Source: Sarcina sp. DSM 11001
Lineage (GTDB): Bacteria; Bacillota; Clostridia; Lachnospirales; Lachnospiraceae
Direction: 5' to 3'
Length of the DNA: 64,000 nt
NCBI RefSeq assembly: GCF_900101015.1
Contig: NZ_FNFZ01000012.1
Coordinates: 1 to 64,000, forward strand
Shown: in pieces, positions 3,637 through 47,288 of the stretch
Numbering within the stretch: position 1 is the stretch's first letter
Layout of the letters: the number at the start of each line of letters is the position of its first letter
The notes under the pieces: generated by a model
Told to the model about the DNA's origin: nothing
Database searches by the model: none
What the model saw: only the letters and a program-made list of their open reading frames with translations
Made by a program: the position numbers and the translations under genes

Positions 3637-3694
3637 TGGAAATTTATAGGCTGAAGAAGGTTTTATAATATTTTTATAATATAAAGAATTCCTG

Positions 3695-28156: not shown

Positions 28157-28201
28157 AGGCAGGAGTCTTGCTGTGCACAGGAAAATGTGTGGGGCAGAGA
28201 A

Positions 28202-30315: not shown

Positions 30316-31291
30316 TCCTCTGATCAGTATTATAATTCCGGTCTATAATGCAGGAGAGCATTTGAAAAAATGCCTGGATTCGGTTATTCATCAGACCTGG
30401 CGGAATCTGGAAATACTGTTGATCGATGACGGTTCGACAGACGGAAGCGGTGATTTATGCGATGAATATGCCGCAGGGGATAAGAGGATCACTTGCCTCC
30501 ATCAGGTCAACAGCGGAGTTTCAAAGGCTCGTAACGCGGGAATCAGGCTGGCGAAAGGAGATTATTATCATTTCCTCGACGGTGATGATTACATAGAAGA
30601 GGACACCTGCGAATATCTCCTGCACCTGATCCGGGCCCATGGATGTGAAGTGATAAACTTCGAATATTATATAACCTATCCGGATAAAGAGGATGTTCAT
30701 TGTCTGCGGGGGGATCAATACGGCTTATTTCAGACGGCTGAAGCTCACCGCATCACCCTCACAGGGGAACCTTTTGTGTGGAATAAACTGTTTTCCAGAG
30801 ATGTCATAAAAGGGGAAAACGAATCTGACCCTGTTTTCTTCAGGGAAGATCTTTCGCGGGGAGAGGACTCTTTTTTCGCTCATCAGGTCATCGAGAGAGC
30901 AAAAACTGTCTGGTTTGATAAACGCCCCCTATACCATTACGTTCAGAGCAAAAACAGTGCGGTGAGGGGAGAATTCCGTGCATCTCAGCTGAGTGCATTG
31001 AAATTATACGGGGCATATCAGCAGTTATATCAGATCGATTATCCTGAGCTTTATCCGATCTTCCTGAAAAAAATGGGCCACCTTCTGATCAGCATTTATT
31101 TTGATATGTGGAGTGATCAAAGAGACTATGGCCGGGAACAGGAGGAAGTGTATAAATACTTTACAAAATATGGACTCCAAAAGATCTGCCCCGGTCAACT
31201 GTCACTAAAAGATAAATTTAAGTTTTCCTTGTTTTCCTTGTCACCCGGTTTATTCTGCAGGCTGCATACATTTCTGCATAAAAGAAAATAG
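30308..31291 (+). CDS. Glycosyltransferase family 2
   Basis: A 327-residue GT-A enzyme: ISIIIPVYNAGEHLKKCLDS, LIDDGSTDGSGDLCDEY, NSGVSKARNAGI and FLDGDDYIEEDTCEYL are the standard nucleotide and metal sites. The segment EPFVWNKLFSRDVI and a paired HQVI helix mark the CpsI/EpsJ-like subgroup. It overlaps the previous gene by 8 bp and leads the pyruvyltransferase fusion by 9 bp, so it is in the same transcript. Confidence 0.92.
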   Translation: MDNPLISIIIPVYNAGEHLKKCLDSVIHQTWRNLEILLIDDGSTDGSGDLCDEYAAGDKRITCLHQVNSGVSKARNAGIRLAKGDYYHFLDGDDYIEEDTCEYLLHLIRAHGCEVINFEYYITYPDKEDVHCLRGDQYGLFQTAEAHRITLTGEPFVWNKLFSRDVIKGENESDPVFFREDLSRGEDSFFAHQVIERAKTVWFDKRPLYHYVQSKNSAVRGEFRASQLSALKLYGAYQQLYQIDYPELYPIFLKKMGHLLISIYFDMWSDQRDYGREQEEVYKYFTKYGLQKICPGQLSLKDKFKFSLFSLSPGLFCRLHTFLHKRK

Positions 31292-31300
31292 GGGGATCGG

Positions 31301-33751
31301 ATGAGAGCTGCTATTGTTACATTATATGCGGATAACTATGGCAATAAACTGCAGAACTATGCGCTTCAAACCATCATGGGGTCCCTGGGGTACGAAACGA
31401 ACACGATCCTGATCGAGAATGGACACAGATTTCACAGGATAGAAACGATGGGAGATTATCTTTCCAGGTTATCTCCCTGTTATTTGAAAAAGGCAGCGTC
31501 TTCGAGATTTAAAAACAAGTATCTTTATAAAAATCAGAGAGACGGCATCATTAAATCGATGCAGTTAAGTAATTCGGATTTTCATATCCGATTACGCAAT
31601 AAATTGCTCAATAAGAGAAGAGAGGCATTCAGATTATTTTCCAAACAGCATTTACATCTGGAAAGCAGAGTATTAAAGCCGGGAGATTATCAATATGCTG
31701 ATGAATATGATGTCTATATCTGCGGTTCGGATCAAATATGGAATCCGACCTATAAAAGCTTTTCGTCACCGTTCTTTTTGAGCTTTGTTCCTGAATATAA
31801 ACGTGTCGCATATGCGCCGAGCTTTGGATTAAGTACGTTACCGGAAGAATTAAAGCCCTTATACCGCAGATGGTTAAATGGAATTCCTTATTTATCAGTG
31901 AGAGAGGAGGAGGGCGCCCGGCTTATCCGGGATCTGACAGGAAAGCGTGTTCCGGTTTTGCCTGATCCCGCTTTATGTCTGTCCGCCTCGGAATGGGAGG
32001 CGATAGAAAAAAAGCCTTCACTTAAAAAGACTTTACTTAAAGAAGCTTTACCCCGGAATCCTTTACAAAAAGAGCCTTTACAGGGGGAGAAAGCTTATAT
32101 TCTCACATATTTTCTGGGGAACGAGACAGATTTATATCGGAGGTTTATTGAGAAATATGCCATACAAACCGGTGCAGAGATCATTAATCTAAATGATATT
32201 CGAGAACCGGATCATTATGCGGCAGGTCCTGCAGAATTTGTCTGGCTGGTCCACCATGCAAAGGCGGTGTTCACCGATTCTTATCACGGTATAATTTTCT
32301 CCCTTATTTTTCATACCCCCTTTGTAGTGTTTAAACGAATAGAATCCGGCGGCGAGGGGATGAATTCCAGGATCGACACTTTGCTTAAGATTTCAGGAAT
32401 GGAAAACAGGAGGTTTGAGACACTGTCTTTGGAAAGCATAGGCTCAGTTGATTTTAAAGATGCTGACGCCGCTGTTCAAAAGAAGGTTCGAGAAGCCAGA
32501 CTCTTTCTTATGCATGCTCTGAGAAAAATGAATGACGAAGCGTCCGAGGCAAATCTCGAAAAAACAAAGGTTTCAGAAACGGTCCGCCCGGATCGGTCAG
32601 ACTGCAGCGGATGCTCCGCCTGTTCACAGATTTGCCCGGTCGAATGCATCCGGATGGAAAATGACGCAGAGGGATTCCTGTATCCGGTAATTGACGGGAG
32701 TAAATGCATAAACTGTGACCGGTGCAGGGACATTTGCGTGAGGGCACAGAGTCCTTTGACGGAAAGTAATGCGGCGTCAGAGAAGTCCTATTTAGCTTAC
32801 TCCAGAGATGATGATATCCGTCGCGGCAGTTCTTCCGGCGGATTGTTCAGCATGATCGCGGAAACAGTTCTGTCAAAAGGAGGACTGGTCTGCGGCGCCG
32901 GTTTTGACCGCGATTTTAAGGTCCGGCATATGTTCGTTTCCGCCCTTGCTGATCTTCCCGGGCTTCGGGGATCCAAATACGTACAGAGTGAGACGGGAAA
33001 CAGCTATAAGAGGATCAGGGAGGAGCTTGAACGGGGGAGGCTGATTCTTTTCAGCGGCACACCCTGCCAGGTGGATGGACTGCTCGCCTGTCTGGGAAAA
33101 GAATACGAAAATTTATATACCCAGGACATTCTCTGCCATGGAGTCCCTTCGCCTGCCGTGTGGAAGGAATATCTGTCGATGAGAAGCGGAGGAGAGCCTG
33201 TGAAGGACGTCTCCTTCCGCGACAAAACATACGGGTGGCACTATTTTTCCATGAAAATAGAAACAGACAAAAGAAAGTATGTCAGGAGACTTGATGAGGA
33301 TACCTATCTCCGGCTTTTTTTAGACGATGTGATCTTAAGACCTTCCTGCTATGCCTGCCGTCATAAAAACATTCATCATAAAGCGGACTTTACTTTGGGA
33401 GACTGCTGGGGAAAAACAGACGGCCTGAAGGACGATGACCGGGGAATATCCCTGCTTTTCGTCAACTCGGACAAGGGACAAAAGCTGATCGGGGAATTGG
33501 AAAATGATGTGCTGTTTTATGAGATACCGTTTGAAGATGCAGTCCTTAAACAGAAGGTGATGACAGAATCTGTACCCTACAATCAGGACCGGGAACTGTT
33601 TTTTGCGATGGCGGAAGAGATGGGGATTCGAAAAGTACTTGAAAAATGGTATAGTCCGGATCCGGTATCCTTTCTGAAAACCCGAAAGGGGTATGCGAAA
33701 TATGTGATCGCCAGAGGATTGAAAAAAATCAGAGCAAAAAAAAGCAGCTGA
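31301..33751 (+). CDS. Polysaccharide pyruvyltransferase / FrhB-type iron-sulfur fusion
   Basis: An 816-residue two-part protein. Residues 1 to about 405 match the polysaccharide pyruvyltransferase family (CGSDQIWNPTY, VAYAPSFGLSTLPEE, VLPDPALCLS, FTDSYHGIIFSLIF), which forms ketal pyruvate from PEP on sugars. Residues 425-816 match the F420 hydrogenase/dehydrogenase beta-subunit family. That part opens with two 4Fe-4S clusters (CSGCSACSQICP and CINCDRCRDIC), then SSSGGLFSMIAE, FSGTPCQVDGLLA and DILCHGVPSPAVW. The halves also occur as neighbouring genes in gut EPS loci. A 15-nt repeat in five copies (about 32010-32085) expands residues 237-262 of the first half. The reaction of the FrhB half is unknown. 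Confidence 0.9.
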   Translation: MRAAIVTLYADNYGNKLQNYALQTIMGSLGYETNTILIENGHRFHRIETMGDYLSRLSPCYLKKAASSRFKNKYLYKNQRDGIIKSMQLSNSDFHIRLRNKLLNKRREAFRLFSKQHLHLESRVLKPGDYQYADEYDVYICGSDQIWNPTYKSFSSPFFLSFVPEYKRVAYAPSFGLSTLPEELKPLYRRWLNGIPYLSVREEEGARLIRDLTGKRVPVLPDPALCLSASEWEAIEKKPSLKKTLLKEALPRNPLQKEPLQGEKAYILTYFLGNETDLYRRFIEKYAIQTGAEIINLNDIREPDHYAAGPAEFVWLVHHAKAVFTDSYHGIIFSLIFHTPFVVFKRIESGGEGMNSRIDTLLKISGMENRRFETLSLESIGSVDFKDADAAVQKKVREARLFLMHALRKMNDEASEANLEKTKVSETVRPDRSDCSGCSACSQICPVECIRMENDAEGFLYPVIDGSKCINCDRCRDICVRAQSPLTESNAASEKSYLAYSRDDDIRRGSSSGGLFSMIAETVLSKGGLVCGAGFDRDFKVRHMFVSALADLPGLRGSKYVQSETGNSYKRIREELERGRLILFSGTPCQVDGLLACLGKEYENLYTQDILCHGVPSPAVWKEYLSMRSGGEPVKDVSFRDKTYGWHYFSMKIETDKRKYVRRLDEDTYLRLFLDDVILRPSCYACRHKNIHHKADFTLGDCWGKTDGLKDDDRGISLLFVNSDKGQKLIGELENDVLFYEIPFEDAVLKQKVMTESVPYNQDRELFFAMAEEMGIRKVLEKWYSPDPVSFLKTRKGYAKYVIARGLKKIRAKKSS

Positions 33752-33786
33752 TTCAAGACTCGCGAACAAGTCCTGAAAGAAGGTAT

Positions 33787-33847
33787 CATAGAGGATACAT
33801 CATAGAGGATACATAGAAGAAATACAGAAGAAATACAAAGGAAGTAC
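33787..33847 (+). repeat. Tandem repeats ending at a ribosome site
   Basis: CATAGAGGATACAT is exactly doubled (33787-33814), then AGAAGAAATAC is exactly doubled, and a third variant, AAAGGAAGTAC, supplies the ribosome site of the epimerase gene at 33852. Confidence 0.85.
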
Positions 33848-33851
33848 ATCA

Positions 33852-34826
33852 ATGAGCTACAACAATATTGTCTTCGAAAAGGATACATTATTTCTCGTTA
33901 CGGGAGGAGCAGGTTTTATCGGATCGAACCTTTGCGAGGCAATTCTGAATCTCGGATATAAAGTGCGGTGTCTGGACGATCTCAGTACCGGCAGTCAGGC
34001 CAATGTTGATCTGTTCATAAATCATCCGGATTATAGTTTTATCAAGGGTGACATAAAAGACCTGAATACATGTCTTGAGGCCTGTGAAGGGGTGGATTAC
34101 GTTCTGAATCAGGCAGCATGGGGCAGCGTCCCGAGATCTTTAAAGATGCCCTTGTATTACTGCGCGAATAATATTGTGGGGACCTTAAATATGCTGGAGG
34201 CTGCCCGGCAGAAGAAGGTGAAAAAATTTGTATACGCGTCCAGCAGCTCTGTTTATGGAGACGGAGCGGAGCTTCCTAAAAAAGAGGGAAGGGAAGGAAA
34301 CCTTCTTTCTCCCTATGCTGTGACAAAAAGGACGATCGAGGAGTGGGCAAAGCAGTATACTATGCATTATGGTCTTGATACCTATGGCCTCCGGTATTTT
34401 AATGTGTTCGGCCGACGCCAGAATCCTGATGGAGCCTATGCTGCGGTCATTCCCAAATTCATTACGCAGCTCCTGCACGGTGAGATTCCCACGATCAACG
34501 GCGACGGAAAGCAGAGCCGTGATTTTACCTATATTGAGAATGTCATCGAGGCGAATCTAAAGGCATGTACCGCACCCTCTTCTGCTGCCGGACAGGTCTT
34601 TAATATTGCTAGCGGCACACGGGAATACTTAATAGATATCTATTATGGGCTGACTTCCGCCCTGGGGGTCGAAGTTCAGCCGGTCTTCAGGCCGGACCGT
34701 CCCGGAGATATTAAACACTCAAATGCTGACATAAGCAGGGCGCGGGAAATGCTCGGCTATGATCCGGACTGGTCCTTTGAACAGGGAATAAAAGAGGCAA
34801 TTAACTGGTACAAAAACAATCTTTGA
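33852..34826 (+). CDS. UDP-sugar 4-epimerase (WbpP/TviC-like SDR)
   Basis: A 324-residue extended SDR. NAD motif [11 protein letters not shown] near residue 17, the Ser of YASSSSVYGDG, and the YAVTKRT YxxxK pair. The longer N-terminal lead and the segment LNQAAWGSVPRSLKMPL fit the group that epimerises N-acetylated UDP-hexoses or hexuronates (UDP-GlcNAc or its uronic acid). NVFGRRQNPDGAYAAVIPKF and GDGKQSRDFTYIENV are characteristic. It provides a donor sugar, probably a GalNAc-type, for the transferases nearby. The ribosome site AAAGGAA belongs to the repeat array just upstream. Confidence 0.9.
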   Translation: MSYNNIVFEKDTLFLVTGGAGFIGSNLCEAILNLGYKVRCLDDLSTGSQANVDLFINHPDYSFIKGDIKDLNTCLEACEGVDYVLNQAAWGSVPRSLKMPLYYCANNIVGTLNMLEAARQKKVKKFVYASSSSVYGDGAELPKKEGREGNLLSPYAVTKRTIEEWAKQYTMHYGLDTYGLRYFNVFGRRQNPDGAYAAVIPKFITQLLHGEIPTINGDGKQSRDFTYIENVIEANLKACTAPSSAAGQVFNIASGTREYLIDIYYGLTSALGVEVQPVFRPDRPGDIKHSNADISRAREMLGYDPDWSFEQGIKEAINWYKNNL

Positions 34827-34860
34827 AGGCCGGTATTGATTTGAAAAGCGGGGGACTGCC

Positions 34861-35847
34861 ATGGGTAAAGAGGATTCGCTGGTGAGTATGATCACTTACT
34901 GCTTCAATGGCGAGCGGTTTGTACATAAATACTTTGAGGCTGTTCTTGCACAGGATTACAGGAATATAGAGCTGATCTTCTTTAACAACGGGTCCACTGA
35001 CCGGACAGGTGAGATTGCGGAAGAGTACAAACCAAAACTGGAAGCGAAGGGATATGAGGTCCATATCATCCACTACAGGGAAAACCAGTCTACATGCCAG
35101 CTGAAACAGGACGCCTTTCACATGATGAAGGGGGATTATTTCTTCGGGTGTGACAGTGATGATCTCATTGATCCTGATTATGTGTCGACAATGGCAGGTT
35201 ATCTACAGAGACATCCCGAAAAGGGAATCGTATATTGCCAGTTGAGGGTCGTGGAAGAGGAAACAGGTATCCTTATGTCCATAGACAGAATGATCCCGAG
35301 ATACAGGGACAGGGAGGCCTTTATTGATATCCTGAACGGCGTCAATATCAATTTTACTGCAATTTCCTATATGATGAGCCGGAAACACTTTGAGAAGGTG
35401 AATCCTGAAAAGAAGATCTACATTTCCAGGTATGGAGAGAACTATCAGATCCAGATACCTTTTCTCTATAACAATTTACAGGGTTATATCGAAAGACCGC
35501 TTGGTCAGTATACGGTCAGAAAAGACAGCTATACAGGAACTCTGACTACAGAAAAGAAAGTCACCGCCCTTAAGGGACAGGAAAAAAGTGTTCTTTTCAC
35601 ATTGAGACAGATCAATGCGGAAAAGAAATATTATCGGTTATTTATCGCGAGGATCAGGCGTGATCGTTTTTATACAGCCCTTCACGGAAAAGACAGACGG
35701 ACTGCGGAAGAGTGCTGGCAGGAGTATTGCAGAGTAAAAAAACCGACGAAAAAGGACATATTGGCATGGGCGCTTTACTGCATGGGACTCTACAGAACAG
35801 TCTGGAAAATAAAAAGGAGAAAGAAGAGGTTAAATAAGCCAGGATGA
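34861..35847 (+). CDS. Glycosyltransferase family 2
   Basis: A 328-residue GT-A enzyme: VSMITYCFNGERFVHKYFEA, FFNNGSTDRTGEIAEEY and the metal site FGCDSDDLIDPDYV. It differs from the other GT2 proteins here in the long C-terminal half with YISRYGENYQIQIPFLYNN and a strongly basic tail (residues 315-328). The start follows GGGGGACTGCC. Its stop overlaps rfbF by four bases (ATGA), coupling it to the dideoxysugar genes. It could be the transferase for the CDP-linked sugar, an inference from position. Confidence 0.88.
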   Translation: MGKEDSLVSMITYCFNGERFVHKYFEAVLAQDYRNIELIFFNNGSTDRTGEIAEEYKPKLEAKGYEVHIIHYRENQSTCQLKQDAFHMMKGDYFFGCDSDDLIDPDYVSTMAGYLQRHPEKGIVYCQLRVVEEETGILMSIDRMIPRYRDREAFIDILNGVNINFTAISYMMSRKHFEKVNPEKKIYISRYGENYQIQIPFLYNNLQGYIERPLGQYTVRKDSYTGTLTTEKKVTALKGQEKSVLFTLRQINAEKKYYRLFIARIRRDRFYTALHGKDRRTAEECWQEYCRVKKPTKKDILAWALYCMGLYRTVWKIKRRKKRLNKPG

Positions 35848-36623
35848 AAGTTGTTATTCTTGCCGGTGGTTATGGGACACGCTTTTCCGAACAATCGCAA
35901 TATAAGCCAAAGCCCTTGATCGAGATCGGCGGCATGCCCATTTTGTGGCACATTTTGAAGGGCTATTCTCATTATGGCTTTAATGATTTTATCATCTGCG
36001 CAGGTTACAAACAGTACGCGGTCAAGCAGTGGTTCGCAAACTATTTCCTGTACACAAGTGATATCACCTTTGACATGAAACATGGAAACAAGATGATCAT
36101 CCACAATCAGCGCACTGAGCCATGGACAGTGACTGTGGTCGATACAGGCTTAAATACCATGACCGGCGGGAGGATCAAAAGAGTACAACCCTACATAGGA
36201 AATGAGACCTTCATGCTCACTTATGGAGACGGCGTCTGTGATGTAAATATATCCAATGTGCTTGCCTTTCATAAATCCCATGGGAGACTGGCGACACTCA
36301 CTTCGGTGATCCTCGAGCAGCAGAAAGGTGTGCTTGATATAGGCGGAGACAACGCTGTACATTCTTTTCGTGAAAAAAATATAAATGACGGCGCCCCGAT
36401 CAATGCGGGGTTCATGGTTCTGGAGCCGGAAATATTTGACTATATAGAGGGGGATGACACTGTTTTTGAGAGGGATTCTCTGATGAAGCTGGCGGACCAG
36501 GGACAGCTCATGAGCTATTCCCACAAAGGCTTCTGGCAGTGCATGGACAATAAACGGGAATACGATCTTCTGGAGAAATTGTGGCAGACGGGGCATGCGC
36601 CCTGGAAGGTATGGGATAATTGA
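35844..36623 (+). CDS. rfbF: Glucose-1-phosphate cytidylyltransferase
   Basis: A 259-residue nucleotidyltransferase: LAGGYGTRFSEQSQYKPKPL near residue 6 is the family signature, with MLTYGDGVCDVNI (metal-binding Asp) and INAGFMVLEPEIF further on. It makes CDP-glucose from glucose-1-phosphate and CTP, the first step to CDP-3,6-dideoxyhexoses. Length matches RfbF/DdhA. rfbG follows at 26 bp and rfbH after that, giving the standard order of the pathway. Confidence 0.95.
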   Translation: MKVVILAGGYGTRFSEQSQYKPKPLIEIGGMPILWHILKGYSHYGFNDFIICAGYKQYAVKQWFANYFLYTSDITFDMKHGNKMIIHNQRTEPWTVTVVDTGLNTMTGGRIKRVQPYIGNETFMLTYGDGVCDVNISNVLAFHKSHGRLATLTSVILEQQKGVLDIGGDNAVHSFREKNINDGAPINAGFMVLEPEIFDYIEGDDTVFERDSLMKLADQGQLMSYSHKGFWQCMDNKREYDLLEKLWQTGHAPWKVWDN

Positions 36624-36651
36624 TGGATTTAAAAAAGATGGATTAAAAAAT
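36622..36651 (+). repeat. Two-copy 15-bp repeat before rfbG
   Basis: GATGGATTTAAAAAA is followed at once by GATGGATTAAAAAAT, the second running into the rfbG ATG at 36650. Confidence 0.6.
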
Positions 36652-37729
36652 GGGTTTTAAAATGATGGACTTAAGCTTTTTTAAATCAAAAAAAGTTCTG
36701 GTGACAGGGCACACAGGGTTTAAAGGCTCCTGGCTGTGCAGAATACTTATGAATGCGGGAGCTTCTGTCACTGGATACAGTCTGGAGCCGGCCGGGGAAC
36801 CTAATCTGTTTTCTTTAGCCGGACTGGAGCAGGGCATCCGCAGTGAGATCGGGGATGTAAGGGATTACCGCCGTCTGGCAGGGCTCTTTAAAGAGATAAG
36901 GCCTGAGATCGTATTTCACCTGGCAGCCCAGCCGATCGTAAGAGAAGGTTATTTAAATCCTAGATTTACCTATGAAACGAATGTAATGGGTACTGTCAAT
37001 TTGCTGGAATGCGTCCGGAAGGCAGATTCGGTGAAAAGCCTGGTCAATGTGACTACCGACAAGGTCTATAAAAATAATGAACAGAGCCGGGGCTATCGGG
37101 AGGAGGAGCCTCTGGATGGGTTTGATCCCTATTCCAACAGCAAATCCTGTTCCGAACTTGTGACCCATAGCTATGTGAACAGTTTTTTTCAGGGGGAAAA
37201 CTCCCCGGCTGTCTCTACAGCCAGAGCCGGAAATGTTATAGGAGGAGGAGACTTTGGGAAAGACCGGATCATTCCGGACTGTATCCGAGCAGTAGCAGGC
37301 GGACAGGTGATCGCTGTAAGGAACCCGTCTTCAATACGGCCCTATCAGCATGTACTGGACTGCCTCTCCGCTTATCTGATGATCGCTCAAAGGCAGTATG
37401 AAGACAAATCCAGTGCAGGCTTTTATAATGTCGGCCCTGATGATTCTAACTGTATTACCACGGGAGACCTGGTAAAAAAGTTTTGTTCATGCTGGGGCAA
37501 AGACGCCTCCTGGAAACATTGCCCTGAACAGGATGCCCCGCACGAGACCGTATGTCTGAAACTGGACTGTAGTAAGATCCGGTCGGCCTTTGGATGGAAG
37601 CCAAAACTGTCGATAGATCAATCTCTGGATCTGGTCTGCCGGTTCGGTAAGGTATGGCTGGAGGGGGGAGACCTCCCGGCGGAAATGGACAGAGAGATCC
37701 GGAATTATTTTGAGAATACAGACTTTTGA
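36650..37729 (+). CDS. rfbG: CDP-glucose 4,6-dehydratase
   Basis: A 359-residue SDR. VLVTGHTGFKGSWLCRIL near residue 17 is the RfbG form of the NAD motif (HTGFKGSW rather than GAGFIGS). VFHLAAQPIVREGY, NVTTDKVYKN and DPYSNSKSCSE (YxxxK) complete the active site. It converts CDP-glucose to CDP-4-keto-6-deoxyglucose. ATG 36650 is used; a second ATG 12 bases on (MMDLSFF) is also possible. A 155-bp spacer full of short repeats separates it from rfbH. Confidence 0.95.
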   Translation: MGFKMMDLSFFKSKKVLVTGHTGFKGSWLCRILMNAGASVTGYSLEPAGEPNLFSLAGLEQGIRSEIGDVRDYRRLAGLFKEIRPEIVFHLAAQPIVREGYLNPRFTYETNVMGTVNLLECVRKADSVKSLVNVTTDKVYKNNEQSRGYREEEPLDGFDPYSNSKSCSELVTHSYVNSFFQGENSPAVSTARAGNVIGGGDFGKDRIIPDCIRAVAGGQVIAVRNPSSIRPYQHVLDCLSAYLMIAQRQYEDKSSAGFYNVGPDDSNCITTGDLVKKFCSCWGKDASWKHCPEQDAPHETVCLKLDCSKIRSAFGWKPKLSIDQSLDLVCRFGKVWLEGGDLPAEMDREIRNYFENTDF

Positions 37730-37769
37730 AACGGCAGACTTTTGAAGAAACAGATACTTGAAGATATGG

Positions 37770-37884
37770 ATTTTTAAAGGGAAAGAGTCTTAAAGGGAAA
37801 GATCCTTGAAGGGAAAGATTCTTGAAGGGAAAGATTCTTAAAGAGAAAGATCCTTAAAGAGCCAGTTTTTTAAAGGGACAGATC
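37770..37884 (+). repeat. 16-bp purine-rich tandem array ending in the rfbH ribosome site
   Basis: About seven diverged copies of AAAGGGAAAGATTCTT. The last unit reads AAAGGGACAGATC and is followed by the rfbH ATG, so it acts as the ribosome site. Each unit looks like a spare Shine-Dalgarno. Confidence 0.85.
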
Positions 37885-39231
37885 ATGTGGAGAAATGAAG
37901 CGGAGGCCAGAGCTCAGATCAAGGACCTGGTAGCTCAGTATTATCATGATTTTAAGGAGAGGAAGGCTCCTTTTTGTAAAGGCGACCGGATTGCCTATGC
38001 GTCGCGGGTTTACGATGAGAAGGAAATGCAGGCTCTTACGGATGCGATGCTTGATTTCTGGCTGACGACAGGACGTTTTTCCGGGCAGTTTGAGAAAGAA
38101 TTTGCCTCATGGATCGGGGTTAAGTATGTTCATCTGACCAATTCCGGCTCTTCGGCAAATCTGCTGGCCTTTATGGCGCTGACAGCCCCGGAGCTGGGGG
38201 AGCGCAGGATAAAAAGGAATGATGAAGTGATCACTGTCGCCTGCGGTTTTCCCACAACGATCTCCCCGATCCTTCAATATGGCGCCGTTCCGGTATTCGT
38301 GGATGTGACCATCCCGCAGTATAATATTGATGTGGGAAGGCTGGAAGATGCCCTGTCTTCAAAGACGAAGGCGGTGATGCTGGCGCATACGCTGGGCAAT
38401 CCCTTTGATCTGCGCAGGGTAAAAGCCTTCTGCCAGGCGCACGGCCTGTGGCTGATCGAAGATAATTGCGATGCTCTGGGGTCAAAATATACGATCGGTC
38501 AGGAAACCCGCTGTACAGGTGCATGGGGGGATATCGGGACCAGCAGCTTTTATCCTCCCCACCATATGACAATGGGGGAGGGAGGAGCGGTTTACACGAA
38601 TGATCCTCTCCTGAGCCGCCTGATCCTTTCTTACCGCGACTGGGGGCGTGACTGCATCTGCCCATCGGGACATGACAATTTCTGCGGGCACAGGTACGAC
38701 GGACAATATGGTGAACTTACCAAAGGATATGACCATAAGTATGTCTACAGCCACCTGGGCTATAACCTTAAAATAACAGATCTGCAGGCCGCGATCGGAT
38801 GTGAACAGCTGAAGAAGCTCCCGTCCTTTACCAAAAGACGTATTGCTAACTGGAACCGACTGCACAGAGCCCTGGAGGGGGCTCAGGATCTGCTGATCCT
38901 GCCGGAGCCGGCAGAAAACAGTGAGCCAAGCTGGTTCGGTTTTTTGATCACACTCAGGGATGGCCTGGACAGAGAAAAAGTGGTCAGGTACATCGAAGAC
39001 CATAATATTCAGACGAGAATGCTGTTCAGCGGGAATATCATCCGGCATCCCGGATTTGATTCGATCCGGGACAGCCGGGCCTATCGTGTCGCGGGAGACC
39101 TCCGCTGCACAGACAGGATCATGGAGAGATCCTTCTGGGTGGGCGTCTATCCCGGAATGACGGATGAAATGATTGATCACATGGCAGAGATCATCCTTGA
39201 AGCTTTACAGAAGTCCTGTGGGAATCGATGA
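37885..39231 (+). CDS. rfbH: CDP-4-keto-6-deoxyglucose 3-dehydrase (E1)
   Basis: A 448-residue PMP-dependent, iron-sulfur member of the DegT aminotransferase fold. The usual PLP lysine is replaced by His (SFYPPHHMTMGEGG, His226/His227), the hallmark of E1, and Cys residues for the 2Fe-2S cluster appear in RDCICPSGHDNFCGH. It removes the C3 hydroxyl to give CDP-4-keto-3,6-dideoxyglucose. E1 normally needs an electron-donating reductase (E3, DdhD); no DdhD-like gene is in this window. Its stop overlaps the next start (ATGA). Confidence 0.95.
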   Translation: MWRNEAEARAQIKDLVAQYYHDFKERKAPFCKGDRIAYASRVYDEKEMQALTDAMLDFWLTTGRFSGQFEKEFASWIGVKYVHLTNSGSSANLLAFMALTAPELGERRIKRNDEVITVACGFPTTISPILQYGAVPVFVDVTIPQYNIDVGRLEDALSSKTKAVMLAHTLGNPFDLRRVKAFCQAHGLWLIEDNCDALGSKYTIGQETRCTGAWGDIGTSSFYPPHHMTMGEGGAVYTNDPLLSRLILSYRDWGRDCICPSGHDNFCGHRYDGQYGELTKGYDHKYVYSHLGYNLKITDLQAAIGCEQLKKLPSFTKRRIANWNRLHRALEGAQDLLILPEPAENSEPSWFGFLITLRDGLDREKVVRYIEDHNIQTRMLFSGNIIRHPGFDSIRDSRAYRVAGDLRCTDRIMERSFWVGVYPGMTDEMIDHMAEIILEALQKSCGNR

Positions 39232-40118
39232 AAATGTTATATATGGATACAAGAGAGGACATGCCCTACAGACCGACGAAACCGACGACCGTAGAAGAAT
39301 TAAAGCTGTGTGCCGCGAGAATAAGACTTCAGCTGCTGGAACTATGTACGAAGGAAGTGATCCACATAGGGGGAGACCTTTCGATCGCTGATGTCATGAC
39401 TGTATTGTGGCTCTATCAGATGAAATATGATCCCTCAAATCCAAAATGGGAGAAAAGAGACCGCTTTGTCCTGTCGAAAGGCCATGCGTCAGCGGTCACA
39501 AGCTTTGCCCAGGCTATGCGGGGGTGCTTTCCGGCTGAAGCCGTCATTCGCGACTATGCAAAGGATGGAAAGAGCTTTTCCATGCATTCCTGTGCCCTGA
39601 ATAACCGTTTTGTCGAGGCTTCAACGGGAAGCCTGGGACACGGATTTCCCATTGCCTGCGGCATGGCGGCCGGGCTCAGACTGAAAAAAAACGACACAAG
39701 CCGGGTGTATGTCCTTATGGGGGACGGAGAACAGGCGGAGGGGTCTGTCTGGGAAGCGGCCATGAATGCGGCTCACTATAAGCTGGGGAATCTGGCGGCC
39801 ATTATTGACTGCAATGGCTTTGAAGCGGACGGCCGGATCGATGAACTGACGGCGATCAATGACCTCGGGGATAAATACAGAGCTTTCGGATGGAATGTGT
39901 GTGAATTTGACGGTAATGATATCGGAGAGATCAAATACCGGTTTGACAGGCTTCCTCCTCCCCGTTCAGAGAAACCGACTGCCCTGATCTGCCGAACGGT
40001 GAAAGGAAAAGGCGTTCCCTTCATGGAAAACGAGCCGAAATGGCATGCCGGGAAGATCACACCGGAACAATTCAAAGAATGTGAAGATCTTTTGCTCAGG
40101 GAGTGGAGAAAGCCATGA
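39228..40118 (+). CDS. Transketolase-like protein, N-terminal (TPP-binding) subunit
   Basis: A 296-residue split transketolase alpha part: HIGGDLSIADVMTVLW, DRFVLSKGHASAV, TGSLGHGFPIACGMA, and the TPP-binding motif GDGEQAEGSVWEAAMNAAHYKLGN. It overlaps rfbH by 4 bp and the C-terminal partner by 16 bp, so it is translated with the dideoxysugar genes. Instead of pentose-phosphate work it probably transfers a two-carbon ketol unit to CDP-4-keto-3,6-dideoxyglucose or a related keto-sugar. TPP-dependent branching at this step is known for yersiniose, though by a different enzyme (YerE). Confidence 0.9.
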   Translation: MKMLYMDTREDMPYRPTKPTTVEELKLCAARIRLQLLELCTKEVIHIGGDLSIADVMTVLWLYQMKYDPSNPKWEKRDRFVLSKGHASAVTSFAQAMRGCFPAEAVIRDYAKDGKSFSMHSCALNNRFVEASTGSLGHGFPIACGMAAGLRLKKNDTSRVYVLMGDGEQAEGSVWEAAMNAAHYKLGNLAAIIDCNGFEADGRIDELTAINDLGDKYRAFGWNVCEFDGNDIGEIKYRFDRLPPPRSEKPTALICRTVKGKGVPFMENEPKWHAGKITPEQFKECEDLLLREWRKP

Positions 40119-41071
40119 CACCGGGTTTTGATGTGGAAAAAAAGTATTCTCTGAGGGATACGATCGGGCAGTATGTGAAAAAGCTGGGCGGGGAAAACGA
40201 AAAGGTCCTTGTGGTAAATGCGGATCTGATGGGGACCTGCCGAAACCGGTCTTTTGTTGAGGCGTTTCCGGAAAGAGCCTTTAACGTCGGCATCGCGGAA
40301 CAGAACCTGGTCAGTTTTTCGGCGGGCCTGGCCCATGAGGGCTTTATCCCTTTTGCCTTTACCATGGCGCCCTTTATGAGTATGAGGGCTTGTGAGCAGT
40401 GCAGGACGGACGTCGCTTATCCGGGATTGAACGTCCGGCTTGTAGCTGCCTATGCCGGTGTATCAGGGGGAATATCGGGTCCCACCCACTGGGGGATCGA
40501 AGACTGCGGAATAATGTGCAGCATGCCCAATATGACAGTGATCGAAGTCAGTGATCCGGTTCAGGCAGAACAGGTGCTGTCAGCCAGCTTGTCTTACGAA
40601 GGCCCGATCTATATTCGGAACGGGATAGTCCCGACCTTCCGGATCCACGGAGACGACTACCAGTACAGAATCGGAAGAGCAGACGTCATTGTTGACGGAG
40701 ATGACGGCGCCATCATCTGTTCAGGAACGGTAGTTCAGTATGCAGTACTGGCTTCTCTTGAGATACGGAAAACCTGTAAAAAACAGGTCAGAGTGATCGA
40801 TATGCACACCATCAAACCCATCGACAGACGAGCGGTCATAGAAGCTGCCGGCACCGGTACAGTTCTTGTGGTCCAGGATCATAATGTGATCGGAGGACTC
40901 GGTTCGCAGGTGGCCAGGGTCATTGCGGAGAGCGGTCTGTCCGCCAGGTTTGCGATCGCAGGGATACCGGACACCTTTGCTGTTATGGCTCATGCGGATT
41001 ACCTGTATGCCGAATATGGAATGGACGCAGCCGGGATAAAAGGGAAAATACTTGAGATGATGGAGCATTAA
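40103..41071 (+). CDS. Transketolase-like protein, C-terminal (pyrimidine-binding) subunit
   Basis: A 322-residue partner of the preceding gene: SLRDTIGQYVKKLG, FNVGIAEQNLVSFSAGLAHEGFIPFAFTMAPFM (catalytic Glu and the TPP pyrimidine site), AYAGVSGGISGPTHWGIEDC, and a C-terminal domain with VRVIDMHTIKPID and QDHNVIGGLGSQVARV. It should form an alpha2beta2 enzyme with the N-terminal subunit. Start codon ATG at 40103; GGGAGTGGAG lies just upstream. The next SDR gene begins directly at its stop. Confidence 0.9.
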   Translation: MEKAMTPGFDVEKKYSLRDTIGQYVKKLGGENEKVLVVNADLMGTCRNRSFVEAFPERAFNVGIAEQNLVSFSAGLAHEGFIPFAFTMAPFMSMRACEQCRTDVAYPGLNVRLVAAYAGVSGGISGPTHWGIEDCGIMCSMPNMTVIEVSDPVQAEQVLSASLSYEGPIYIRNGIVPTFRIHGDDYQYRIGRADVIVDGDDGAIICSGTVVQYAVLASLEIRKTCKKQVRVIDMHTIKPIDRRAVIEAAGTGTVLVVQDHNVIGGLGSQVARVIAESGLSARFAIAGIPDTFAVMAHADYLYAEYGMDAAGIKGKILEMMEH

Positions 41072-41983
41072 ATGAAAAGAGCTGTTGTTACAGGTGCTAC
41101 AGGGACGATCGGCACAGCCCTGATCGATGAGCTGATCAGAAATGACATGGAAGTCGTCGTGATCTGTAATCCTGATTCTGAACGTAATGACAGGATACCG
41201 GAGGATGAACATATAAGGAAACTGTATTGTCCTCTGTGCCGGTTAAAATCTCTGGAAAACACCACCGGGAAGGAATATGACGTCTTTTATCATCTTGCCT
41301 GGCAGGGGACAGGCGGTCCTTTCCGCAATGATATCTACTTACAGTACAGAAATGTGCAGTATTCGCTCGATGCTGTCGGCGCAGCGAAAAGGTTTGGCTG
41401 CCGCACATTTATCGGAGCCGGGTCTCAGGCGGAATACGGAAGATTTAATGGAAAACTGAAACCGGAGACCCCGGCCTTCCCTGAGACAGGCTATGGGATC
41501 GGAAAACTGTCCGCCGGCCTGATGACCAGAGAATACGCGCATCAGGCAGGCCTGCGTCATATCTGGGTGAGGGTCCTGAGTGTGTATGGGCCCAATGACA
41601 GCAGTCAGACAATGATCATGTCTGTTATTAAAAGTATTCGGGAAGGAAAAACGCCGGAGCTGACAAAGGGAGAACAGATGTGGGATTATCTGTACAGCGG
41701 TGATGCGGCGAGGGCCTTTTTCCTGTTAGGAGAAAGAGGCAGGGACGGAAAGACCTATGTGCTCGGAAGCGGGAAGGCGGAACCTGTAAAGAATTACGTC
41801 AGCATGATCAGAGACAGGATGGATCCCTCAGCGCCGCTTGGCTTTGGAAAAGTCCCCTATGGAGACAGGCAGGTGATGTACCTGTGCGCGGATATCAGCG
41901 ACATAAGTGCGGATACGGGATGGAGGCCATCGACCCCGTTTCATGAGGGGATTCAGACTGTCATAAAGCATTTCTGCACATAA
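41072..41983 (+). CDS. NAD(P)-dependent SDR reductase/epimerase of the dideoxysugar set
   Basis: A 303-residue extended SDR: VVTGATGTIGTALIDELI at the start, a YHLAWQGTGG segment, IGAGSQAEYG and the ETGYGIGKLSAG YxxxK motif. It resembles reductases acting on CDP-4-keto sugars, such as abequose synthase RfbJ and YerF. It begins immediately after the transketolase C subunit (stop TAA then ATG). It likely reduces the keto group of the C2-extended product or of the 4-keto dideoxysugar. The exact product cannot be read from sequence. Confidence 0.85.
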   Translation: MKRAVVTGATGTIGTALIDELIRNDMEVVVICNPDSERNDRIPEDEHIRKLYCPLCRLKSLENTTGKEYDVFYHLAWQGTGGPFRNDIYLQYRNVQYSLDAVGAAKRFGCRTFIGAGSQAEYGRFNGKLKPETPAFPETGYGIGKLSAGLMTREYAHQAGLRHIWVRVLSVYGPNDSSQTMIMSVIKSIREGKTPELTKGEQMWDYLYSGDAARAFFLLGERGRDGKTYVLGSGKAEPVKNYVSMIRDRMDPSAPLGFGKVPYGDRQVMYLCADISDISADTGWRPSTPFHEGIQTVIKHFCT

Positions 41984-43197: not shown

Positions 43198-44010
43198 ATG
43201 ATTCCTAAAATCATACATTACTGTTGGTTTGGACGCAGTGAAAAGCCTGACCTGGTAAAAAAGTGCATAAACAGCTGGAGAGCGTACTGCCCCGAATATA
43301 AAATTATTGAGTGGAACGAGGATAACTATGATTTTTCCACTGCTCCGGCCTTTGTTCATAAGGCTTTAAAGGAAGAAAAGTGGGCATTCGTATCTGACTA
43401 TGTGCGATTGAAAGTAGTTTATGAATATGGCGGAGTGTATCTGGACACGGATGTAGAGCTCATCAGGCCGCTGGATCCCCTCCTGAAGAATAAGATTTAC
43501 TTCGGTGTCCAGTATGATTTTCATCCCGCTACCGGACTGGGATTCGGTTCCGAGAAAGGTATTCCTTTTTTAAAAGAACTGATGAGTACCTATGAAAACT
43601 GCCGCTTTTCCTCTCAGGACAGTCTGGATATGATCCCTTGCCCAGACCGTGATATAGAGGTTTTTCTTGCTCATGGCTTTATCGTGGACGATAGGGAGCA
43701 GACTCTTGACGGTTATATACATATTTATCCCACGGATTACTTCTGCCCGGTCTCCTTTTATTCATCCAAAAAAAACTTTACTCCCAATACAATTTCGATT
43801 CACTGGTATGCTGCAAGCTGGCATCCGGTTTATGGGAAGAAGGGACGTCTGTACAGATTAGTCAGAAAAAAGATTTGTATTGCCGCTGATTATATCCTGC
43901 ATATTCCAAACCGCATCGGGATGACGGTGTTGGGTATGGAACGATATGAACATCTCAAAAAAAAAGCTAAAAAGAAGAATATGAGTCCGGGATCAGACAA
44001 AGCATTATGA
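43198..44010 (+). CDS. Glycosyltransferase family 32 (DXD sugar-binding)
   Basis: A 270-residue enzyme with the GT32/OCH1-like pattern: IPKIIHYCWFGRSEKPDLV, SWRAYCPEYKIIEWNEDNYD, WAFVSDYVRLKVVYEYGGVYLDTDVELIRPLD (the DXD metal site), and IHWYAASW near residue 205. It moves a hexose from a nucleotide sugar to the EPS unit. The last 50 residues are helical and very lysine-rich. It sits between a GT2 gene and the exporter genes. Confidence 0.92.
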   Translation: MIPKIIHYCWFGRSEKPDLVKKCINSWRAYCPEYKIIEWNEDNYDFSTAPAFVHKALKEEKWAFVSDYVRLKVVYEYGGVYLDTDVELIRPLDPLLKNKIYFGVQYDFHPATGLGFGSEKGIPFLKELMSTYENCRFSSQDSLDMIPCPDRDIEVFLAHGFIVDDREQTLDGYIHIYPTDYFCPVSFYSSKKNFTPNTISIHWYAASWHPVYGKKGRLYRLVRKKICIAADYILHIPNRIGMTVLGMERYEHLKKKAKKKNMSPGSDKAL

Positions 44011-44058
44011 GCGGGCAGCAGGTCTGCCGCAGGATCCTTTCAGCCAGGGGGGGAGCAA

Positions 44059-44895
44059 ATGGAAGACTTTGATGTTGTAATTGTATCTAAAAAAGGATGG
44101 CTCGATGTTGATTTTAAAGAGCTTTGGAGATACAGGGACCTGATTTTATTGTTTGTAAAAAGGAATTTTATTTCACTGTACAAACAGACGATACTGGGAC
44201 CGGCGTGGGCAATTATCCAGCCGCTTCTTACAACAGTCATTTTTACAGTTGTTTTCGGATCGATGGCGGGTCTGTCGGCAGACGGAGTTCCTTCTTTTTT
44301 GTTTTATATGAGCGGGACGATTCTATGGACGTATTTTTCAAACTGCCTGACAAAGACGGCGAGTACTTTTACCGCGAATGCCAGAATTCTGGGAAAGGTC
44401 TATTTTCCAAGACTGGTCATGCCTATTTCCACGGTTTTAACCAATCTCATCTCGCTCGCTATTCAGTTTGCCATGTTTCTCTGTTTTCTGGCTTATTACG
44501 TGATCAGAGGAGAGGTTCGTCCAAGCGGCTATGTGCTGCTGCTCCCCCTGCTTGTGCTGCAGACAGCTCTGCTTTCCCTGGGGAGCGGGATCATTGTATC
44601 AGCTTTGACAACGAAATACAGAGATCTGCAGATGCTGGTCAGCTTCGGAGTTCAGCTCTGGATGTACGGGACACCGGTCGCCTATGACATCAGGATCATC
44701 CCCGCCAAGTATATGAGGTTCTATATGCTGAATCCGATGACGCCGATTATTAATGTATTTAGAAAAGCCCTGTTGGGAATAGGCCGGTTTCAGCCGGGAT
44801 ACTATTTGTGCGGATGGGTCGTTACGATCTTCATTACCTTTATCGGAATCGTTCTGTTTAACCATGTCGAAAAAACTTTTATGGACACGGTATAA
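44059..44895 (+). CDS. wzm: ABC-2-type polysaccharide exporter, membrane subunit (Wzm)
   Basis: A 278-residue inner-membrane protein with about six helices. The N-terminal amphipathic part LWRYRDLILLFVKRNFISLYKQTILGPAWAIIQPLL is typical for TagG/KpsM/Wzm permeases, as is YRDLQMLVSFGVQLWMYGTPVAY. With the ATPase encoded 9 bp downstream it would export a completed lipid-linked glycan. AGGGGGGGAG precedes the ATG. Its presence beside an EpsG-type polymerase and a Wzz-like protein mixes two export schemes. Confidence 0.93.
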   Translation: MEDFDVVIVSKKGWLDVDFKELWRYRDLILLFVKRNFISLYKQTILGPAWAIIQPLLTTVIFTVVFGSMAGLSADGVPSFLFYMSGTILWTYFSNCLTKTASTFTANARILGKVYFPRLVMPISTVLTNLISLAIQFAMFLCFLAYYVIRGEVRPSGYVLLLPLLVLQTALLSLGSGIIVSALTTKYRDLQMLVSFGVQLWMYGTPVAYDIRIIPAKYMRFYMLNPMTPIINVFRKALLGIGRFQPGYYLCGWVVTIFITFIGIVLFNHVEKTFMDTV

Positions 44896-44904
44896 GGCAT
44901 TTGT

Positions 44905-46188
44905 ATGAATAAAACTGTGATAAGAATCGAGCATGTTTCGAAAGAATATCGCCTGGGCGCGATCGGAGGAGGTACTCTGAAAGGCGATCTTCAGACCTGG
45001 ATGGCAAGAATGCGCGGCAGGGAAGATCCGAATTCAAAGATTGGATCGACCAGGAACGCAGGGGCCGGCGAGCGCTTCCTCGCATTGGATGATGTCAGCT
45101 TTGAAGTCCAAAAGGGGGAAGCCCTGGGGATCATCGGTCATAATGGAGCGGGAAAATCAACCCTGCTTAAACTTCTGTGCAGAGTGACCGCTCCTTCGAA
45201 AGGTAAACTGTCTTATAACGGGCGTATTGCCTCTATGCTGGAGGTGGGAACAGGGTTTCATAGTGAGCTCACCGGCCGGGAGAATGTCTACATGAACGGC
45301 GCTATCCTCGGGATGACAAAGCAGGAGATCAGCCGTAAATTTGATGAGATCGTCCGGTTTGCCGAAATGGAACAGTTTATCGATACACCGGTAAAGAGGT
45401 ATTCCTCGGGCATGTATGTAAAGCTCGCATTTGCCGTTGCGGCTCATCTCGACAGCGAGATCATGATCATGGATGAAGTACTGGCTGTCGGTGATGTCAC
45501 TTTTCAGAAAAAATGCCTGAGACGGATGCGGGCGGCCGCGACAGAGGAAGGAAGAACGGTTCTGTACGTCAGCCACAATATGAACACGATCCGCGAACTC
45601 TGTGACAGGTGCATTGTCATGGATCACGGGAAGATTATTTATGACGGGGATGTTGAAAAGGCGATCGGGATCTATATCGGAGCCAATGATTATTTCAGAA
45701 CCAATTATGAATATACTTCATCCTCCCATTCCAGGGGAGGAAGAAAACAGGCTCTGATCGAATCGATCAGGTTTGAAGACGGTTTTACAGGCCAATGTAC
45801 CGCATCCCGGGAAGTGAGGCTGACCCTGGGAGGAAGAGCTGTGGATAAACTGCAGAATCTGCGCTTTCACTTTGAGATCGAAGCGCCTAATGGCAACAGG
45901 ATTGGTACCATGTTCACGGACAAAGAGATTTCCGTGAATAAGGGAGAATCGTTTACTGTTCCCATGAGCCTCGATCTTTCAGGGCTTGCGCCGGACCGCT
46001 ATATATTCCACGCAGTCGCGGAAACTTTGGAGTCCTATGAGACCTATGCGTGGCAGGACTCAGTCAGCCATGCCTTTACCCTGGAGATCCTCGCGGATCC
46101 CGATTCCCGGAAGATGGGCATATGGGCCACGAGAAGCTGGGGGAATGTGAAGCTGAAGGATATCAGGATCAGAGCGGATGATGTGTAA
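44905..46188 (+). CDS. wzt: Polysaccharide exporter ATPase with carbohydrate-binding C domain (Wzt)
   Basis: A 427-residue protein. The ABC domain (about 1-250) has Walker A GHNGAGKST, signature RYSSGMYVKLAFAVA, Walker B EIMIMDEVLAVGD and the switch His in LYVSHNMNTI. The C-terminal beta-rich domain (about 265-427) matches Wzt_C, which in O-antigen exporters binds the chain end before export. There is a 30-residue insertion near 30-50 ahead of Walker A. It pairs with the permease gene 9 bp upstream. Confidence 0.93.
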   Translation: MNKTVIRIEHVSKEYRLGAIGGGTLKGDLQTWMARMRGREDPNSKIGSTRNAGAGERFLALDDVSFEVQKGEALGIIGHNGAGKSTLLKLLCRVTAPSKGKLSYNGRIASMLEVGTGFHSELTGRENVYMNGAILGMTKQEISRKFDEIVRFAEMEQFIDTPVKRYSSGMYVKLAFAVAAHLDSEIMIMDEVLAVGDVTFQKKCLRRMRAAATEEGRTVLYVSHNMNTIRELCDRCIVMDHGKIIYDGDVEKAIGIYIGANDYFRTNYEYTSSSHSRGGRKQALIESIRFEDGFTGQCTASREVRLTLGGRAVDKLQNLRFHFEIEAPNGNRIGTMFTDKEISVNKGESFTVPMSLDLSGLAPDRYIFHAVAETLESYETYAWQDSVSHAFTLEILADPDSRKMGIWATRSWGNVKLKDIRIRADDV

Positions 46189-46247
46189 GTCATCCTCGCA
46201 TATCCATTTAGAAAAGTAAATGATTAAACCCGAGGAAGGGGGATGTT

Positions 46248-47288
46248 TTGTATTTTGAGAAAAAAATCAGCATTGTCATGCCGGTCTACAATACATCCGT
46301 CCTTTTCCTGAAAGAAGCCGTAAGCAGTATCCTTGGTCAGTCCTTTGATGAATTTGAATTTATCATCATTGATGACGGATCCGCTGCCCCCGTCAGAGAC
46401 TATCTGGATTCTCTGGAAGATCCCCGCATAAGGATCATACGCAATGAAAAAAATCTGGGCATTACAAAATCCCTGAATACAGGCTTCAGAACCGCAAAGG
46501 GAAAATACATTGCAAGGATGGACAGCGATGATATCAGTCTGCCCGGCCGGCTGCAAAAACAGTATACTTTCATGGAGCGCCATCCTGATGTGATCATATG
46601 CGGGACGGAGACAGAAGCAATTGGTTCTGCTGAGGGAAAACAGGGCAACCTGTCCGGTAAATACAGAATTGAAGATACGGAAGAGTACAGGATTAAAATG
46701 CTCTTCGAAAATCCCGGTCCCTTCCACCCCACGGCCTTTTTCCGGCATGAAAAACTGCTTGAACATGGCATTCTGTATGATGAGAGTCTTTACTATGCTC
46801 AGGACTACGGGATGTGGGAGACGATCAGTCATTATGGGAATGTGGCTGTTCTTGAGGATGTATTGTTTCTCAGGAGGAAACATGAAAACCAGATTTCCAC
46901 TGCGCACAGGGCACGCCAGATTCAATGCGATAAAATGACCCAGAGGAAACTCCTTTCAGAATTGCTGGGAAGTGTAACGGAAGAGGAGATGGACCTGCAT
47001 TATGTTCACTCCACAGGGGCCTTTCGCGATGCGAAGATCACACCTGAAGTTGTGCAATGGTATGAACGTATCCTTAAGGCCAATGACCGGAGCCGCATCT
47101 ACAACAAACGAAAACTGAAAAAAAGGATCCTGATTATTGAAAGAAGACTCGTAGAGCAGTCTTTTACCAAAGAGATGTCAAAGCTGGATAAGCTGCGGCT
47201 TGTCTTCAAATATCTGCCTTTCCCGTATGCAGTCAGAGAAACGAAAGAAATAGCTTTACTGAAATTCAGGAGTCTCATTTCCGACTGA
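46248..47288 (+). CDS. Glycosyltransferase family 2
   Basis: A 346-residue GT-A enzyme: ISIVMPVYNTSVLFLKEAVS, IIDDGSAAPVRDYL, NLGITKSLNTGFRTAKGKYIARMDSDDISLPGR. The start is TTG at 46248: GGAAGGGGG ends 5 bases upstream, and an ATG at 46243 is in another frame that stops after a few codons. It is the last transferase of the locus. The C-terminal 80 residues are basic and helical. Confidence 0.92.
   Translation: MYFEKKISIVMPVYNTSVLFLKEAVSSILGQSFDEFEFIIIDDGSAAPVRDYLDSLEDPRIRIIRNEKNLGITKSLNTGFRTAKGKYIARMDSDDISLPGRLQKQYTFMERHPDVIICGTETEAIGSAEGKQGNLSGKYRIEDTEEYRIKMLFENPGPFHPTAFFRHEKLLEHGILYDESLYYAQDYGMWETISHYGNVAVLEDVLFLRRKHENQISTAHRARQIQCDKMTQRKLLSELLGSVTEEEMDLHYVHSTGAFRDAKITPEVVQWYERILKANDRSRIYNKRKLKKRILIIERRLVEQSFTKEMSKLDKLRLVFKYLPFPYAVRETKEIALLKFRSLISD

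Follow-up and report, generated by a model that had tools for sequence, protein, structure and literature searches.

A split transketolase beside rfbFGH in Sarcina sp. DSM 11001 as a candidate two-carbon branching enzyme for a CDP-dideoxy sugar

The 64,000-nucleotide stretch of Sarcina sp. DSM 11001 analysed here (positions 1 to 64,000 of contig NZ_FNFZ01000012.1; hereafter the window) carries at 35844-41983, on the forward strand, the genes rfbF, rfbG and rfbH, the two halves of a split transketolase (tkN and tkC) and the gene of a short-chain dehydrogenase/reductase (SDR). We judge it likely, from sequence comparison, that the transketolase and the SDR form a dedicated two-carbon branching route on cytidine diphosphate (CDP)-4-keto-3,6-dideoxyglucose, which would yield an eight-carbon (C8) branched sugar. 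What the comparison suggests as new is a sugar-branching pathway dependent on thiamine diphosphate (ThDP) with a transketolase in the slot of YerE. The first-pass annotation of this DNA had proposed a transketolase-type two-carbon extension of the same intermediate; recurrence of the gene order, the transketolase clade, the SDR clade and the changes of substrate-site residues described below support that proposal.

The six-gene set and its recurrence

All six open reading frames (ORFs) lie where the first-pass annotation had placed them, and their order, with rfbF-rfbG-rfbH followed by both transketolase halves and the SDR, is borne out by ORF positions and family profiles (Table 1). RfbF, RfbG and RfbH each exceed the curated NCBIfam cut-offs (TIGR02623, TIGR02622 and NF011936). 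The transketolase halves score above the Pfam cut-offs for PF00456 (Transketolase_N), PF02779 (Transket_pyr) and PF02780 (Transketolase_C), and the SDR above that for PF01370. With the best NCBIfam transketolase model the halves reach 226 (TkN) and 197 (TkC) bits, under the cut-off of 488 set for the full-length protein, and the SDR reaches no NCBIfam equivalog cut-off. The ORFs are all separate, and the title of the first-pass annotation was wrong to call the genes fused. Its 4-bp overlap of rfbH and tkN and its abutment of tkC and the SDR gene stand; the 16-bp overlap of tkN and tkC holds for the GTG start at 40103, but is 4 bp (ATGA) from the in-frame ATG at 40115, which is preceded by GGAG and is the more likely start of tkC. 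By alignment, RfbH has His at the position of the lysine that binds pyridoxal phosphate (PLP) (PPHHMTMGEGG) and keeps the C-x-C and the third Cys of Salmonella RfbH. Because of this replacement and the retained Cys cluster, it should be a genuine 3-dehydrase.

Relatives of TkC were collected by a scan of genome contigs, from which the best 80 loci were taken (more exist); the pattern scan of viral contigs gave no match. Among these 80, loci L122 (uncultured Erysipelotrichaceae) and L123 (uncultured Treponema, of another phylum) present the complete order rfbF-rfbG-rfbH-tkN-tkC-SDR. Within the family of the window, two of 299 genomes have a TkC at E values up to 1e-75, namely the window genome and G703; in the latter (L202) an incomplete rfbH near the contig end is followed by tkN-tkC-SDR, with rfbF-rfbH-rfbG about 4 kb on. 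A search for the same gene order, which the first-pass annotation had put forward as a check, thus finds it in two genomes and partly in a third. Since the order recurs in another family and another phylum, the gene set is more than a chance association.

In a tree of 45 transketolase pairs, the four rfbFGH-linked pairs (window, L122, L123 and L202) form one clade with those of L124 and L126 (support 99/100), and all six members sit in nucleotide-sugar clusters. L124 has a guanosine diphosphate (GDP)-mannose 4,6-dehydratase, above its cut-off, and an RfbH-like protein in which His replaces the PLP lysine and a Cys cluster is present; this protein matches RfbH best in NCBIfam, but its 266 bits fall short of the cut-off (423). 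L126 (6590-14957) combines rfbF, a 41% relative of rfbG, a protein with C-methyltransferase domains, the transketolase pair and a YerE-like enzyme; no rfbH lies within the available stretch. No relatives of rfbF, rfbG or rfbH above 150 bits occur in the other loci of the best 80, and the relative in L124 is its RfbH-like protein. In a sample of the phylum, the nearest TkC relatives stand at 48% (G156, G235, G342) and 44% (G190, G220), none of them beside rfb genes in the 6-16 kb viewed. The first impression from this sample, which seemed to speak against a dedicated transketolase lineage, was countered by the closer relatives found later, some of them beside rfb genes.

The sister of the six-member clade is L125 (83/99), and its surroundings bear on another account, in which the transketolase would use an aldehyde or sugar-phosphate acceptor in ordinary carbohydrate metabolism and stand beside rfbH by chance. 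The next relatives (L125, L127-L129) do occupy catabolic-looking settings, with MFS transporters, zinc-type alcohol dehydrogenases, FGGY kinases and an aldo-keto reductase. We hold this account to be very improbable, as the transketolase recurs beside rfbH in further genomes of two phyla and forms a separate clade (99/100).

Transketolases outside this clade also occur in rfb clusters. Locus L114 (G235) has the order rfbF-SDR-tkN-tkC-rfbG-rfbH; its transketolase is separate from the window clade and groups with a second transketolase-like pair (TK2) of L034 (100/99). The first pair (TK1) of L099, on a plasmid of Desulfobaculum bizertense, forms a separate long branch of unsure place. As the lineages of L114 and L099 are separate from the window clade, a transketolase was probably joined to rfbFGH more than once. 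The stretch 9138-20416 of L099 is colinear with L034, and a transketolase pair stands directly after rfbH where L034 has a YerE-like gene. This exchange lends the reading weak support, because the lineage is a separate long branch and the plasmid cluster appears damaged in rfbF and several further genes. TK2 itself (3673-4470 plus 2798-3676 in L034; also 17452-18956 in L099) lies next to a short SDR, and the rfb clusters concerned also have an aldolase-like gene. The L034 TK2 was set aside as an analogue of the window transketolase: its N half lacks the catalytic histidines, with N, Q and Q at H26, H66 and H100.

Substrate-site residues of the transketolase

Transketolase_N matches at three places in the genome, in the window and in L038 and L039. 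The latter two are also split, and the split architecture was therefore rejected as the novelty. In alignment to E. coli TktA, whose numbering is used throughout, the pairs of L038 and L039 retain H461, D469 and R520, where the window pair has Tyr, Ser and Ile. Because it has lost residues that the other two pairs keep, the window pair is probably not the housekeeping enzyme. All the catalytic and ThDP residues (H26, H66, H100, D155, N185, H261, E411 and H473) are identical. In the substrate site, Y461, S469 and I520 are accompanied by T at S385 and by M434, and R358 is kept. In transketolases, H461 and R520 bind the phosphate of the substrate, and H100 and H473 hold the C1 hydroxyl of the ketol donor. 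The best solved relative of both window halves, the split transketolase of Carboxydothermus (PDB codes 6yak and 6yaj), keeps by alignment the H, E-D and R motifs that the window transketolase has lost.

Comparison of 84 TkC sequences (those of the best 80 loci, the window, L202 and the two other transketolases of the genome) sets these changes in proportion. H461, D469 and R520 are all retained in 45 of the 84, and R520 in 75. The combination of M434, Y461, S or A at 469 and I, V or T at 520 occurs in exactly seven, namely the window, L202, L122, L123, L124, L126 and L125, and L129 comes close (F434, Y461, S469, K520). H26, H66, H100, H261, E411 and H473 are conserved throughout the seven; E. 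coli Dxs, a 1-deoxy-D-xylulose-5-phosphate synthase (DXS), has Phe at H100.

The same positions have been changed by engineers. According to PMC5073344, D469T gives bulky acceptors more space in the E. coli enzyme and R520Q broadens the funnel; the triple variant S385Y/D469T/R520Q acts on aromatic aldehydes, which are bulky and non-phosphorylated. The window transketolase is likewise changed at 385, 469 and 520; the residues differ (T, S and I, with Y461 and M434 in addition), and the variant described there was made for aromatic aldehydes. The natural changes point to a bulky acceptor held without the usual phosphate grip. The loss of D469 fits the proposed acceptor because that sugar has no hydroxyl at C3, next to its ketone. 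Since two phosphate ligands are lost, a non-phosphorylated donor is plausible, though R358 is kept. Action on pentose phosphates only, the outcome that the first-pass annotation had named as contrary to its proposal, appears less likely, because the phosphate-binding residues are lost and two ordinary transketolase pairs exist elsewhere in the genome.

The reductase and the YerE slot

A total of 25 RfbH loci (the window, L034-L037 and L101-L120, from genome samples of 61 and 398) were viewed over about 9 kb on each side where contigs allow; L095-L097, viewed to 1.5 kb, were left out. Genes were called YerE-like when they resembled either of two ORFs, one of which lies in L035. The best solved matches of the L035 ORF are 8rph (394 bits) and 5ahk (243 bits), which we take to be the structures of PpYerE and JanthE. 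Structures of both these enzymes are noted in a 2025 review (PMC12247030). A YerE-like gene or piece of one is found at 11 of the 25 loci, a transketolase at three (the window, L114 and L034, the last with both) and neither at 12.

The best relatives of the window SDR (48% identity, L104; 45%, L109) both come from rfb clusters that also carry a YerE-like gene. The SDR tree puts the window protein in a clade of nine (100/100), of which four are linked to a transketolase, four to a YerE-like gene and one to neither, the transketolase and YerE rows being interleaved. Independently of this clade, the SDRs of L114 (transketolase-linked) and L110 (YerE-linked) are sisters (100/99). Label changes were also counted over the tree. 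The label 'neither' changes 4 times (shuffled mean 8.7), as low in none of 500 shuffles, and the YerE label 5 times, as low in 29 of 500. When ThDP enzymes are pooled against none, with the long-branch SDRs of L115, L124 and L126 (present in the full tree) omitted, the label changes 4 times; shuffling gives 7.7 changes on average and so low a count in 2 of 500 cases. In L122 (transketolase-linked) and L035 (YerE-linked) the next glycosyltransferase is also common, at 61% identity.

The first-pass annotation had held that a transketolase route would be distinct from that of YerE. The enzyme is indeed of transketolase type by Pfam, and bases 1-123999 of the 126910-bp window contig contain no YerE-like gene (acetolactate-synthase-type, ThDP-dependent), the only hit being a partial match of 43 bits. 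Because its SDR shares a clade with those of YerE-like clusters and no YerE-like gene lies in the contig as read, the transketolase seems to occupy the YerE slot in the window cluster. Taken together, the SDR clades, the shared glycosyltransferase and the absence of a YerE-like gene from the contig as read suggest to us that different ThDP branching enzymes have been swapped within one pathway.

Two other assignments can be weighed on this evidence. In the first, the SDR would be an ordinary 4-ketoreductase for a plain 3,6-dideoxyhexose of the paratose or abequose type, and the transketolase would supply sugar phosphates or serve an unrelated sugar of the cluster. RfbH clusters with no ThDP enzyme are common (the 12 of 25 above), and CDP-paratose synthase is a distant relative of the window SDR (24% over 206 aa). 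That synthase from Salmonella, the sole named sugar reductase in the tree, nevertheless groups (100/97) with three SDRs of RfbH clusters lacking a ThDP enzyme, apart from the window SDR clade. The genome also has two other transketolase pairs with H461, D469 and R520, and although the window transketolase has lost all three, its relatives remain linked to rfbFGH in distant taxa. We find this assignment quite unlikely.

In the second, the transketolase-like pair would itself perform the YerE reaction, transferring acetyl from pyruvate to C4, with yersiniose or a close isomer as product. Such a role would suit both its place in the YerE slot and the type of SDR that accompanies it, which is that of YerE-like clusters; the match of TkC to DXS, at 148 bits compared with 197 for the best transketolase model, would suit it too. 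The pair has, however, kept H100 and H473, the histidines that hold the C1 hydroxyl of a ketol donor, where the pyruvate user DXS has Phe at H100; TkN scores 29 bits for E1_dh and 133 for Transketolase_N; and the window clade falls among split transketolases in the tree. A YerE-type reaction is thus unlikely.

Proposed pathway, surrounding cluster and known systems

In the pathway that we favour, RfbF, RfbG and RfbH, with a putative E3-type reductase, would make CDP-4-keto-3,6-dideoxyglucose. TkN/TkC would take a two-carbon ketol, as dihydroxyethyl-ThDP, from a ketose or hydroxypyruvate-like donor, and this would attack the C4 ketone to give a 4-C-hydroxyacetyl branch on a tertiary alcohol. 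The SDR would then reduce the ketone of the side chain to a 4-C-(1,2-dihydroxyethyl) branch, and a glycosyltransferase of the cluster would place the C8 branched sugar into an exported polysaccharide. It is only by analogy with YerE, whose branching gives a tertiary alcohol, that we prefer branching at C4 to lengthening of the chain.

Several observations weigh against this pathway. We infer the acceptor, the C4 position, the donor, the side-chain reduction, the product and the polymer, all from sequence, and similarity and position are the grounds for the labels 'YerE-like' and 'branch reductase'. Transketolases are rare beside RfbH (3 of 25 loci). On the SDR tree the transketolase label is not clustered by itself (5 changes; 80 of 500 shuffles give as few), which is to be expected if the transketolase swaps with YerE. 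The SDR of L103 is of the same clade, and the 59 kb viewed there hold neither a YerE-like nor a transketolase gene; in L102, one of the four YerE-linked members of the clade, the YerE-like piece lies about 10 kb from the SDR; and the SDRs after the transketolases of L124 and L126 belong outside the clade of the window SDR. Loss of the phosphate ligands affects binding of the donor too. Finally, L125 has the same residue pattern yet lies near an aldo-keto reductase, an IclR-type regulator and an FGGY sugar kinase. As it carries the pattern away from rfb genes, the pattern by itself is no proof of a nucleotide-sugar acceptor; the L125 pair (9069-10933) possibly serves catabolic use of non-phosphorylated substrates.

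The nearest known system is the YerE pathway of yersiniose A, together with ErwE and the enzymes of caryophyllose and gastriose, which shares the proposed acceptor, the use of a ThDP enzyme for the C4 branch and, in YerE-like clusters, SDRs of a common clade. YerE is an acetolactate-synthase-type decarboxylase that adds an acyl group from an alpha-keto acid, whereas the window enzyme is a split transketolase expected to add a two-carbon ketol. The 2025 review (PMC12247030) assigns YerE-like enzymes to the branched sugars of lipopolysaccharides and pyruvate-type dehydrogenase-like enzymes to secondary metabolites. Among the latter, the alpha-keto acid dehydrogenase type 2 enzymes of aldgamycin, kosinostatin, paulomycin and avilamycin also perform ThDP-dependent two-carbon branching, followed in some cases by reduction of the side-chain ketone; they are E1-type and use pyruvate (same review), in contrast to the window pair, a transketolase by the Pfam scores given above. 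Transketolases that branch keto sugars appear there as proposals only (miharamycin, amipurimycin and 13 split-gene transketolases), all from streptomycetes and none characterised in vitro. The split transketolases of miharamycin and amipurimycin are likewise proposed to add a hydroxyacetyl group to a keto sugar (section 2.3 of the review); by their description they belong to streptomycete secondary metabolism, and the window enzyme to a Bacillota host, an rfb-type CDP sugar and a surface polymer. For the reduction of the side chain, PMC4753412 gives the aldo-keto reductase Pau7 in paulomycin, the equivalent step of yersiniose being uncharacterised in 2016. A full-text literature search, covering titles, the starts of abstracts and few subscription papers, found no description of transketolase-based branching of an rfb-type CDP sugar.

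Table 1 Features of the six-gene set and of the surrounding cluster in the window
Feature	Position	Strand	Evidence
rfbF, glucose-1-phosphate cytidylyltransferase	35844..36623	+	TIGR02623, 371 bits (cut-off 300)
rfbG, CDP-glucose 4,6-dehydratase	36650..37729	+	TIGR02622, 420 bits (cut-off 278)
rfbH (E1), CDP-4-keto-6-deoxyglucose 3-dehydrase	37885..39231	+	NF011936, 691 bits (cut-off 423); residue alignment
tkN, N-terminal ThDP-binding half of split transketolase	39228..40118	+	PF00456, 133 bits; best solved relative 6yak; equivalents of H26/H66/H100/D155/N185/H261 kept
tkC, C-terminal half of split transketolase	40103..41071 (GTG)	+	PF02779, 98 bits; PF02780, 76 bits; 6yaj; Y/S/I at TktA H461/D469/R520
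Extended SDR, proposed side-chain ketone reductase	41072..41983	+	PF01370, 127 bits; groups (100/100) with reductases from YerE-like clusters
Context: glycosyltransferases, TupA-like ATP-grasp, EpsG, pyruvyl transferase fusion, galE-like epimerase	24999..35847	+	
Context: capsule-type glycosyltransferase, ABC-2 permease, Wzt-like ATPase exporter, glycosyltransferase-like ORF	43198..47288	+	PF04488/PF05704, PF01061, PF00005+PF14524

By gene content, the surroundings of the six-gene set are a surface-polysaccharide locus with an ATP-binding cassette exporter that has a Wzt-type C-terminus (Table 1). Its last ORF (46248-47288) shows a weak likeness (49 bits) to a neighbouring glycosyltransferase. 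An 816-aa ORF of the cluster (31301-33751) joins a polysaccharide pyruvyl transferase domain to a 4Fe-4S and FrhB/FdhB-like half, and might be an electron carrier inside the cluster. Elsewhere in the window, the 3' end of a 23S rRNA gene is followed by four tRNA genes (1-894), a gene for a Ser/Thr protein kinase shares 4 bp with a 2981-aa ORF that matches bacterial Ig-like domains (8043-18784), and a metallophosphoesterase ORF contains an in-frame run of PESME repeat units (47386-48489).

Beyond the window, we lean slightly towards a wider view, in which these pairs would represent a transketolase subfamily dedicated to ketol addition on nucleotide 4-keto sugars, for the most part 4-keto-3,6-dideoxyhexoses bound to CDP and perhaps to GDP. 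This subfamily would be spread between Bacillota and Spirochaetota, with transketolase and YerE-like enzymes exchanged at least twice, and its products would be undescribed 4-C-(1,2-dihydroxyethyl) octoses of surface polymers. If the pathway is true, a transketolase would naturally use a ketone acceptor, a nucleotide 4-keto sugar, for which the 2025 review (PMC12247030) considers experimental evidence still needed. Nature would have altered the same positions as the engineers who opened the active site of transketolase, and such enzymes would offer ready-made candidates for the synthesis of chiral tertiary alcohols that bear a hydroxyketone arm. The pathway also predicts a new eight-carbon branched sugar (octose) in bacterial surface polymers, and the swap of two unrelated ThDP enzymes at one slot would illustrate how surface-sugar pathways diversify.

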